This document shows positions 1,095 to 43,314 of a stretch of DNA of 64,000 nt, piece by piece. The stretch's first letter is position 1, and each line of letters begins with the position of its first letter. The notes under the pieces are model-generated. The model did not search any database and was not told the origin of the DNA. It was given only the letters and a program-made list of their open reading frames with translations. The DNA is taken from contig JAUVYB010000002.1 in NCBI GenBank assembly GCA_030603275.1, forward strand, positions 1 to 64,000, in the 5' to 3' direction. Position numbers and translations under genes: made by a program. The stretch is from Deltaproteobacteria bacterium (GTDB lineage: Bacteria > Chloroflexota > Dehalococcoidia > Dehalococcoidales > BS750m-G39).

Positions 1095-3125
1095 TTATTC
1101 TTCTATCCGGGCGGCCAGCAGCTCGGCGATATCCATCACCTTGAGCTGTTCTTCGGCCGCCTTGGCTTTAATACCGTCTTCAAACATCTGCAGGCAGAGG
1201 GGGCAGGCGGTAATTACGGTTTGAGCTTTAGTCTCCATCGCCTGCTCGGTGCGCATCTCGTTGATGCGGTTGCCCTCTTGCTCCTCCAGCCACATGTGCC
1301 CGCCGCCTCCTCCACAGCAGAACCCCCGCCGCTTGTTCCTCTCCATCTCCACCATCTTGATACCGGGGACGGCTTTTATAATCTGCCGCGGCGGCTGGTA
1401 GATATTATTATATCGCCCCAGGTAGCAGGCGTCGTGGTAGGTCACCACCTCGTTTAAGCCCTTTTTAATTTTTAGCTTGCCCTCTTTGATTAGCTGGGCG
1501 ATGAGCTCGGTATGGTGAATAACCTCAAAATTACCGCCGAACTGGGGGTACTCGTTCTTGAGCATGTTATAGCCGTGGGGGCAGGCGGTGACTATCCGCT
1601 TCACCCCGTAGTTCTTTAGTATCTCAATGTTTTTCTCTGCCTGCATCTGGAAGAGGTATTCGTTGCCCAGGCGCCGGGCCGGCTCGCCGCAGCAGCTTTC
1701 CTCCGCCCCCAGTATGCCGAAGTTGACCCCGGCCGCTTTGAGCAGCTTGGCTGTTGCCTGAGCTACTTTAGTGCTCCTTTCCTCCAGTGCCCCGGTGCAA
1801 CCGACCCAGAAGAGGATGTCTACATCCTGGTCATCGGCCAGGACCTTGATATCCAGCCCCTCGGCCCAGTCCGTCCGCGACAGGGTAGTTCCACGCCAGG
1901 GGTGGCCCCTATCCTCAATACTGCGCAGCGCTCCTTCGGCTGTTTCCGGCATGGACGACTGCTCCATCACCAGGTTTCGCCTCAGGTCTACTATTTTGTC
2001 AATGTGGTCTACCCACACCGGGCAGACTTCATCACAGGCACCACAGGTAGTGCACGCCCAGATTTCATCCAGCAGGATGACATTGTCCGCCAGAGCAACA
2101 TTGGGGTTGGCCGGGGCCGGTTCTCCCTTAGCCTTGGCCGCCACCAGTTCGGGGCCTACCTTGAGGAGATGGTTCTTCAGGTCCTGTATCAGCTTCTTGG
2201 GGTTAAGCTGTTTGCCGCTGATGGTAGCCGGACAAAGCTCCTGGCAGTTACCGCAGACCACGCAGGCGTACAGGTCCAGGTTCTGTTTCCAGGTAAATTG
2301 GTCAATGGTAGCGACACCGAAAGATTCCGCCGTCTCCAGGTCGATGGGCTTCAGGGCACTGCGAGGCTGGTTGCGCAGGATGCCGTTGAATATGGAGGCG
2401 ATGATGTGCAGGTACCGGGTGTAAGGGATGATTGCCAGAACGAAGACCACGGTAATCCAGTGTGCCCAGAGGAAGCCGAGGTACCAGCCTTCGGTGCCCG
2501 CACCGGCGGTGAACAGGTTACTGACCCAGGCGCTCACCGGGGGCAGAAGGGTATGCCCCAGCCCCGCCGGCGGGTGTCCCAGCGTAATCTTGGCACCTAT
2601 TTCAAATACGTATGTCACCGGATGGGTGAGCACGGACACGAGGATAATCATGGCCTCGGTGGTCTGTTCCCCCTTGAGCCGGTCGGGCCTGATGATATAG
2701 CGCCTGATAATACCCCATGAGGCACCTACGAAAATGAAGACCGCCATGAAGTCCATTACCCAGACCGAGTAGAAATAAAACTGGGTCTCTTCTATGGCAA
2801 TCAAGCCAAAGCCCTCAGTTAAGATGATGAAGAAGAAGTAGAAAACGACGGAGACAAAGAAACCCCAGACCATCAGGGCATGCCCCAACGGCGCCCAGTC
2901 CTTCACCCGGAAGTTCTTGAGCTGGCAGAGCTGGCTGAAAACATAGACTAGCGTATCCAGTATCTGTTTAATCCAGCTTTTCGAACCGGTCTCCTTCTGT
3001 CCCAGGAACATGTACTGCCAGAGCTGCCTGAGGCGGTAGGCGAACAGCCCGAGGGTGATTAAGAATACTCCCCAGAACAGCACGTAAAAGAGAGGTGTTC
3101 CTGGCATAAAGCTATCCATTGACAT
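1095..3125 (-). CDS. Membrane-bound HdrD-like iron-sulfur oxidoreductase with NarI-like N-terminus
   Basis: A 676-residue respiratory-type protein. Residues about 10-245 hold five to six membrane segments like the NarI/DsrM cytochrome-b-type anchor. Next come two [4Fe-4S] sites (C288, C291, C294, C298 and C358, C361, C364, C368). Then two cysteine-rich CCG domains follow, the first with C443, C478-C479 and C515, the second with C567, C603-C604, C641 and C644. This order is that of membrane-anchored heterodisulfide-reductase-like (Fe-S)-binding proteins, which pass electrons between a quinone or quinol and a thiol or flavoprotein partner. The partner is not encoded beside it. An acyl-CoA dehydrogenase or electron-transfer flavoprotein partner is plausible but is not shown by the sequence. 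Confidence 0.88.
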   Translation of the reverse strand: MSMDSFMPGTPLFYVLFWGVFLITLGLFAYRLRQLWQYMFLGQKETGSKSWIKQILDTLVYVFSQLCQLKNFRVKDWAPLGHALMVWGFFVSVVFYFFFIILTEGFGLIAIEETQFYFYSVWVMDFMAVFIFVGASWGIIRRYIIRPDRLKGEQTTEAMIILVSVLTHPVTYVFEIGAKITLGHPPAGLGHTLLPPVSAWVSNLFTAGAGTEGWYLGFLWAHWITVVFVLAIIPYTRYLHIIASIFNGILRNQPRSALKPIDLETAESFGVATIDQFTWKQNLDLYACVVCGNCQELCPATISGKQLNPKKLIQDLKNHLLKVGPELVAAKAKGEPAPANPNVALADNVILLDEIWACTTCGACDEVCPVWVDHIDKIVDLRRNLVMEQSSMPETAEGALRSIEDRGHPWRGTTLSRTDWAEGLDIKVLADDQDVDILFWVGCTGALEERSTKVAQATAKLLKAAGVNFGILGAEESCCGEPARRLGNEYLFQMQAEKNIEILKNYGVKRIVTACPHGYNMLKNEYPQFGGNFEVIHHTELIAQLIKEGKLKIKKGLNEVVTYHDACYLGRYNNIYQPPRQIIKAVPGIKMVEMERNKRRGFCCGGGGGHMWLEEQEGNRINEMRTEQAMETKAQTVITACPLCLQMFEDGIKAKAAEEQLKVMDIAELLAARIEE

Positions 3126-41869: not shown

Positions 41870-42078
41870 AATCTCATTTTGACCGCCCGGTAATTCCCCC
41901 TACCTTTCTCCCAGTACTATTTACTACTTGAATTAGCCTATTTGGGTGATTACGTCCCTGTGTTGAGCGTGTTAGGATAGTAAAAATTCGCCAAATGGAG
42001 AAAAGTAGGACCCGGGGAAGTCTTTTTTAGCTAGTCATTTAATACTAAGTTTGACTTAAAGAATAGGGATGTGATGAA

Positions 42079-42156
42079 CCAGAGCCTTTAATGTGGTCAC
42101 CTGGGCTCTGGGGAGCAAGTGGTGAAACCGGCCCTAAATGGGGCCGGTTTTTCTTT
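42079..42156 (+). ncRNA. Candidate structured leader: hairpin, loop pseudoknot and terminator before pilT
   Basis: CCAGAGCC (42079-42086) pairs with GGCTCTGG (42104-42111). Loop bases TCACC (42097-42101) are complementary to GGTGA (42121-42125), a possible five-pair pseudoknot. Directly after it AAACCGGCCC/GGGCCGGTTT (42125-42150) plus T-rich sequence forms a strong terminator, 34 bases before the pilT start. The layout resembles a terminator-controlled riboswitch or attenuator. I match no known class. Otherwise the 320 bases between tRNA-Cys and pilT show nothing I can name. Confidence 0.5.
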
Positions 42157-42189
42157 TACTGTCCCCGGTAGTAAGGAGGGCGTCTTGCC

Positions 42190-43314
42190 GTGAGTAAACT
42201 AAATGGTTTTGGTGAAATTCTGGAGCTGGCGGTTAGCAAGGGGGCTACCGATTTGCACGTAAAGGTGCCCAGCCCGCCGGTGCTGCGTATAGATAGCGCG
42301 CTGGTTGCCCAGGAGGAATGGCCGCCGTTTACCGCCGATGATATAGAGGGGATATTTGAGGAAATCACTACCCAGGAGCAGCGAGAGGCTTTTAGTAGGG
42401 AACATGAGCTGGACTTTGCCTATAGCGTGTCCGGGCTGGCCCGGTTCCGGGTTAACGTACTGCGGCAGAGGGGCACCATGAGCCTTGCCTTCCGCCGGGT
42501 GCCGTCCAGCGTGCCTTCGGTTGATGAGTTAGGGCTGCCCCAGGTTTGTAAAACTCTTATTCTCAAGCCGAGAGGACTGGTCCTGGTCACCGGTCCCTCC
42601 GGCAGCGGCAAGTCAACCACCCTGGCGGCGATGATTGATCACCTTAATGAGAACGCGACCCGGAGTGTAATTACCATCGAAGACCCGATTGAATATCTAT
42701 TCCACGACAAAAAATGTCTCATCCGGCAACGAGACATGGGGGATGACACCAAATCCTTCTCCGCCGCCTTAATCCACGCCCTCCGCCATGACCCGGATGT
42801 AATTGTTATCGGCGAGATGCGTGACCTTGAGACGATAAGTACCGCTATCACCGCTGCTGAGACCGGTCATCTGGTGCTGGCCACGCTGCACACCCTTGAC
42901 GCCGCCCAGTCTATCGATCGTATAATTGATGTTTTCCCCCCTGTCCAGCAACGGCAGATGAGATTGCAGCTATCACAGGTGATAGAGGCCGTGCTTTCGC
43001 AGACCCTGTTGCCCTGTATCGGGGGAGGACGGGTAGCCGCCTTTGAGGTTCTGCTGGCCAATAGCGTCATCAGAAGGCTTATCCGGGAAGAGAAGATACA
43101 TGAAATAGGGCCTAGCTTGGAGATGGGCAAACTGGAGGGGATGCATACCCTGGACCAGGCGCTGGCCGAGCTGGTCAAGAGCGGTATTGTTTCTAAAGAA
43201 GAGGCCATGATGAAAACCAGCAGTCAGGTAAAGCTGGCCAAGCTACTGCAGGCAGACCGGGATACCTTTACGCCCTTGGCAGTTGCCGAACCGGCGCTGA
43301 ATGTTGCCCAGTAG
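42190..43314 (+). CDS. pilT: PilT-like type IV pilus retraction ATPase (orphan)
   Basis: A 374-residue secretion-type AAA ATPase that would drive disassembly of type IV pilus fibres. An N-terminal PilT domain (SDL-like DLHVKVPSPPVLRIDS) precedes Walker A GPSGSGKST at 135-143, the Asp box TIEDPIEYLF, Walker B VIVIGEMRDLET, the His box HTLDAAQSIDRI and a late SVIRRLIREEKIHE resembling the PilT-specific AIRNLIRE motif. The GTG start has AAGGAGG ten bases away. No other pilus gene lies in the window. A strong terminator sits just upstream, implying controlled read-through or an unseen promoter. Confidence 0.92.
   Translation: MSKLNGFGEILELAVSKGATDLHVKVPSPPVLRIDSALVAQEEWPPFTADDIEGIFEEITTQEQREAFSREHELDFAYSVSGLARFRVNVLRQRGTMSLAFRRVPSSVPSVDELGLPQVCKTLILKPRGLVLVTGPSGSGKSTTLAAMIDHLNENATRSVITIEDPIEYLFHDKKCLIRQRDMGDDTKSFSAALIHALRHDPDVIVIGEMRDLETISTAITAAETGHLVLATLHTLDAAQSIDRIIDVFPPVQQRQMRLQLSQVIEAVLSQTLLPCIGGGRVAAFEVLLANSVIRRLIREEKIHEIGPSLEMGKLEGMHTLDQALAELVKSGIVSKEEAMMKTSSQVKLAKLLQADRDTFTPLAVAEPALNVAQ

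Follow-up and report, generated by a model that had tools for sequence, protein, structure and literature searches.

The locus raises a plain question: what is the structured leader directly ahead of a stand-alone pilT gene in a Dehalococcoidia genome, and what does it respond to? A preliminary description of the 64,000-nucleotide stretch of DNA analysed here (hereafter the window) had proposed a ligand- or protein-controlled attenuator that is not a c-di-GMP-I riboswitch. The exclusion holds, with no match to RF01051 (c-di-GMP-I) in the Rfam scan of the window, as does the notion of a ligand-type device with a pseudoknot and a terminator; what had been overlooked is the other known c-di-GMP class. 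A cmscan search with all Rfam families aligned the leader to RF01786, the c-di-GMP-II riboswitch, at 42058-42142 over the full model (1-84), with 70.7 bits against a gathering threshold of 53.5 and an E-value of 7.4e-14 for the whole window; the alignment shows the conserved blocks of the family, and this is the sole RF01786 site in the 1.52-Mb genome. Its sequence and conserved fold assign the leader to the c-di-GMP-II riboswitches, making it a new representative of an established class; this identity supplies a predicted ligand, and hence a ligand hunt is no longer needed. We regard a c-di-GMP-II riboswitch that acts by transcription attenuation and is predicted to be an ON switch for the stand-alone pilT as the best explanation of the locus, with a probability of about 0.9.

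The architecture bears this out at several levels (Table 1). The hairpin recognized earlier, formed at the DNA level by CCAGAGCC (42079-42086) and GGCTCTGG (42104-42111), and the complementarity of its loop bases TCACC to GGTGA are both where they had been placed. The span first drawn around them, 42079-42189, includes the hairpin, pseudoknot and terminator and cuts off the 5' strands of P1 and P2; hence, the element is properly 42058-42158. The region folds better than 200 of 200 dinucleotide shuffles (z -3.4). Further, we aligned 37 aptamers from the class and wrote out the pairs of P1, P2, P3 and the pseudoknot: 93.3% of the cells are paired, as against 76% upon shuffling and no more than 45% when the partners are slid, and two-sided (compensatory) changes are seen in 18 of the 21 pairs, pseudoknot included. 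The pseudoknot strands themselves vary among these relatives as UCACU/AGUGA, UCGCU/AGCGA and UUACU/AGUAA, compared with UCACC/GGUGA in the window.

Table 1. Features of the pilT leader and its surroundings (window coordinates)
Feature	Position	Strand	Basis or remark
Conserved upstream motif, core 41916-41951 ACTATTTACTACTTGAATTAGCCTATTTGGGTGATT; probable regulator-binding or promoter region	41902-41957	+	also before HTH_17 genes
c-di-GMP-II riboswitch aptamer (RF01786)	42058-42142	+	cmscan, alignment, covariation in 37 relatives
P1 5' strand UAGGG, partner CCCUA 42132-42136	42064-42068	+	two-sided changes in 4 of 5 pairs
P2 5' strand, partner 42115-42117	42070-42072	+	alignment and covariation
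P3 hairpin, 8 bp, CCAGAGCC 42079-42086 / GGCUCUGG 42104-42111	42079-42111	+	two-sided changes in 8 of 8 pairs; 95.9% of cells paired
Pseudoknot 5' strand UCACC, partner GGUGA 42121-42125	42097-42101	+	94.6% of cells paired; two-sided changes in 3 of 5 pairs
Ligand-contacting strand A-A-A-C-C-G-G (3Q3Z 68-74), by mapping	42125-42131	+	contact list of PMC7288161
Intrinsic terminator, 5' arm 42124-42135, 3' arm 42140-42151, then U-rich tail	42124-42158	+	stem of 12 pairs
Shine-Dalgarno-like AAGGAGG, before pilT and outside the terminator	42174-42180	+	read from sequence
PilT/PilU-family type IV pilus ATPase, 374 aa, GTG start	42190-43314	+	TIGR01420, 451 bits (cut-off 319)

The direction of the switch is suggested by the way the aptamer and the terminator are interlaced. 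The terminator had been placed about 34 nucleotides before pilT, immediately downstream of GGTGA: the distance is right, as the first T-run lies about 34 nucleotides 5' of the GTG at 42190, whereas GGTGA shares two bases with the stem and so does not lie wholly ahead of it. The 5' arm of the terminator, GAAACCGGCCCU, comprises the ligand strand and most of the P1 3' strand, such that 42124-42136 is common to the aptamer and the terminator. Since the ligand strand doubles as the terminator 5' arm, the bound aptamer and the terminator are mutually exclusive, and hence a transcriptional ON switch is predicted. In computed energies, the 12-bp terminator stem amounts to -20.6 kcal/mol, and the terminator together with P3 to -35.3 kcal/mol, whereas P1-P3 give -18.0 before a pseudoknot term of about -5 is added; thus, the ligand would be required to act against termination. 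Of the 48 riboswitches of the class that were examined, 44 show this overlap, as against 6% with shuffled downstream sequence, which makes it the usual platform of the c-di-GMP-II riboswitch in this class. As the Shine-Dalgarno-like sequence lies outside the terminator, control is probably exerted at transcription only.

Briefly, we advance the following as the probable mechanism. At low c-di-GMP, the aptamer 3' strand AAACCGGCCC would be captured by GGGGCCGGUU, and RNA polymerase would halt at the U-run. Upon c-di-GMP binding, the strand would instead be locked into the ligand pocket, the pseudoknot and P1, held there by the ligand long enough for the polymerase to pass; the terminator could then not form and pilT would be transcribed. 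The gene is thus probably turned on at high c-di-GMP. The opposite arrangement, an OFF switch in which the ligand promotes termination, has its precedents, for both directions occur in other riboswitch classes and c-di-GMP-I has both ON and OFF members (PMC6366702). Here, it is quite improbable, as the terminator takes up the ligand-contacted strand together with the P1 3' strand and cannot coexist with the bound aptamer, and we saw no anti-terminator that would release the terminator on binding.

The ligand is predicted to be c-di-GMP itself. In the Clostridium acetobutylicum c-di-GMP-II aptamer 3Q3Z, whose helices, pseudoknot and base-contacting residues are the same as those of the window element, the ligand contacts include U37, G39, A61, A69, A70, C71, C72 and G73 (PMC7288161). 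These map, respectively, to U42094, G42096, A42118, A42126, A42127, C42128, C42129 and G42130, all of them identical in the window; the positions of A69, A70, C71 and G73 are invariant in 37 of 37 relatives and that of C72 in 36 of 37. At a single offset, and at no other, the 3Q3Z sequence used for this map is matched by 13 of the 13 residues in the contact list. A13 of 3Q3Z is an A in the window too, and those listed contacts that differ lie in P2, in one pseudoknot base pair and at A74. An aptamer of this fold with a changed ligand, for instance another cyclic dinucleotide, would not be without parallel: a ligand change has happened in c-di-GMP-I/GEMM, and the Rfam variant family RF03169 (c-di-GMP-II-GAG) is matched by some members of the class. 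Against it, the canonical family is the best match within the clan, all the base-contacting residues are canonical, and the genome encodes an enzyme that has both a GGDEF and an RxxD motif, all of which leaves a changed ligand with little to commend it. The latter enzyme, a GAF-GGDEF-HD_5 protein on contig C48, is the one GGDEF protein detected in the genome; its GGDEF motif is intact and accompanied by an RxxD site, making it a putative c-di-GMP maker. One PilZ protein was also found in the genome, and no EAL protein was found. Across the class, GGDEF was found in 14 of the 16 riboswitch genomes tested; it was not found in the 0.8-Mb assembly G393, though this genome has the riboswitch–pilT pair.

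We next consider how far the arrangement extends. Among 393 sampled Dehalococcoidia genomes, 74 have matches to RF01786, with up to 11 in a single genome; 50 are above the cut-off. Conservation of the leader upstream of orthologous pilT genes, which the preliminary description had named as the check on its proposal, was found in part: the riboswitch lies directly before pilT in the window genome and in two further ones, namely G393 (locus L031; pilT 88% identical) and G369 (locus L006; 66%), and it is absent, by both Rfam and a class-built model, at the other orthologous pilT loci searched. No further coincidence of riboswitch and pilT was noted when the class-wide places listed for both were compared by eye. 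Hence, within these loci and listed places the pairing is rare, being limited to three genomes, and what is conserved across the class is the riboswitch family, not a leader of pilT. The PilT proteins of the window and L031 are sisters (100/100), and that of G369 groups with the PilT of G087, whose gene is without a riboswitch at its locus. This led us to reject closest descent as the source of the pairing shared by the window and G369; either loss elsewhere or transfer of the leader is needed, and both are possible as the origin of the patchy distribution. In a separate observation, the L031 record (JAUWGI010000055.1) is labelled Deltaproteobacteria, yet it is syntenic with the window, with the same tRNAs, the riboswitch and the 88% identical pilT; it probably represents a Dehalococcoidia bin that is mixed or carries the wrong label.

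The same comparison bears on whether the riboswitch has decayed and now merely serves as an ordinary terminator behind the tRNA genes, which are indeed its immediate upstream neighbours on the same strand. This we consider hardly probable, for over 100 nucleotides the element is 92% identical between the window and G369, though identity between the PilT proteins is just 66% and a different tRNA lies upstream, and both the 12-bp terminator and the covarying aptamer are intact. An unclassified or protein-controlled attenuator, as suggested at the outset by how compactly the hairpin, pseudoknot and terminator are arranged, can be dismissed for practical purposes given a score far above the cut-off of RF01786.

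What would be gained by placing this particular gene under a c-di-GMP-II ON switch? The translation of the window pilT displays the Walker A motif GPSGSGKST along with the IEDPIEY, GEMRD and HT motifs. It had been termed an orphan, and it does stand alone at its locus; a second PilT of the genome, 47% identical, is encoded on contig C48 within a cluster of pilus genes, so that "orphan" is to be understood as away from the operon and not as the sole copy. The C48 cluster codes for a small HTH_17/MerR-type protein, a LuxR-type response regulator, PilB, PilC, two proteins with pilin-methylation motifs, further proteins and PilT, and no riboswitch was found at this operon. The extra PilT produced from the window gene may supplement the retraction ATPase of the pilus operon or take its place, with a corresponding effect on pilus dynamics. 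In G369, an incomplete genome with the riboswitch–pilT pair, there was no PilB-like match. Pfam assigns an MshEN domain to the PilB of the window genome; we considered direct c-di-GMP sensing by this domain and rejected it, having found no RLGxx-type motif in the protein. Before MshEN and T2SSE, this PilB (L140:6399-8888, contig C48) also has an N-terminal restriction-endonuclease-like domain, Mrr_cat (37 bits).

A further layer of control is hinted at upstream of the aptamer. The pilT gene had been said to have no other visible promoter; our scan for a sigma-70 consensus likewise made none visible for pilT, but the statement has to be qualified by a conserved motif at 41902-41957, which is probably a regulator-binding or promoter region. 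It is kept in L031 and G369, with much of the stretch between it and the aptamer being less so. A degenerate 36-bp pattern was derived from the window and its relatives, and its perfect match at the window is thus built in; it has nine matches in the 393 genomes as against none for a reversed control pattern, and none in shuffled windows. Copies of the motif, 36-50 bp in length (ACTATTTACT...ATTAGCCC.TTTGGGTGATT), are seen at 41902-41957 in the window, on contig C48 (L140:9959-9996, minus strand) and at G000:C35:22232-22267. Most further copies lie just upstream of small HTH_17/MerR-like genes. Such a motif-preceded gene heads the pilus cluster in the window genome and in G351, and a motif-linked one is divergent from a riboswitch in G109, G373, G155, G079 and G094. 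The motif was discarded as a general mark of pilus operons, since only in G351 and the window genome does pilB follow; within the stretch read in G094, no pilB accompanies the corresponding pair of HTH gene and regulator gene. It is possibly an autoregulated regulator site, and we offer as a lead that it may be a putative site for the HTH protein or a partner regulator, common to the pilus operon and the riboswitched pilT. By extension, and as a tentative proposal that we think doubtful, some Dehalococcoidia might hold a second retraction motor behind two gates, the HTH_17/MerR-linked upstream site and the c-di-GMP-II ON riboswitch, such that a rise in c-di-GMP changes pilus dynamics by an added ATPase. 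If true, pilus dynamics would be altered via the existing machine and not by making or stopping pili.

Set beside known systems, the device is familiar and its target unusual. The class II switches of Clostridioides difficile are ON switches, one of which controls type IV pili (PMC6366702, PMC11477304). That one, Cdi2_4 of the pilA1 operon, is a terminator-based ON switch for type IV pilus genes (PMC6366702); it controls a pilin gene and, via read-through, the operon, whereas the window riboswitch precedes only the stand-alone pilT. The use of an aptamer strand as a terminator arm recurs in the fluoride and HMP-PP riboswitches (PMC13273304; PMC6478431), whose aptamers and ligands are unrelated to those of the window element. 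As reported in PMC7096442, c-di-GMP affects the balance of extension and retraction of the Vibrio cholerae MSHA pilus; as described there, control is on the activity of the pilus system, whereas in the window the RNA would switch the gene for a retraction ATPase. The reviews consulted treat the c-di-GMP-II class mainly from clostridia and deinococci (PMC9495176, PMC12564702), whereas the window host belongs to the Dehalococcoidia (Chloroflexota). Within the literature searched, combining c-di-GMP-II with Chloroflexi yielded no paper, and neither the clade nor the gene context of the riboswitch was found there. From the pilT case one would predict that the signal sets the dosage of a retraction motor, in a small genome where just one GGDEF protein was detected.

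More generally, c-di-GMP-II riboswitches are common in the Dehalococcoidia, and their expression platform hardly varies: the strand that contacts the ligand also serves as the terminator arm. Elsewhere in the class, judging from the first residues of the products, the riboswitch often lies before genes with secreted-protein-like starts, and sometimes before regulators or a glmS-like gene. The latter is seen at L029 (G200), where the product of the gene directly downstream of a riboswitch at 1501-1584 (minus strand) starts with MCGIVGYIGNKS; this pairing would connect c-di-GMP to amino-sugar synthesis. We also observed tandem c-di-GMP-II riboswitches at L005, L007, L027, L030, L126 and L130, some of the pairs consisting of one canonical RF01786 and one variant RF03169 member. 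Finally, G149, G181, G203 and G213, all of one family (f63), have 10-11 c-di-GMP-II riboswitches each, amounting to a large regulon.
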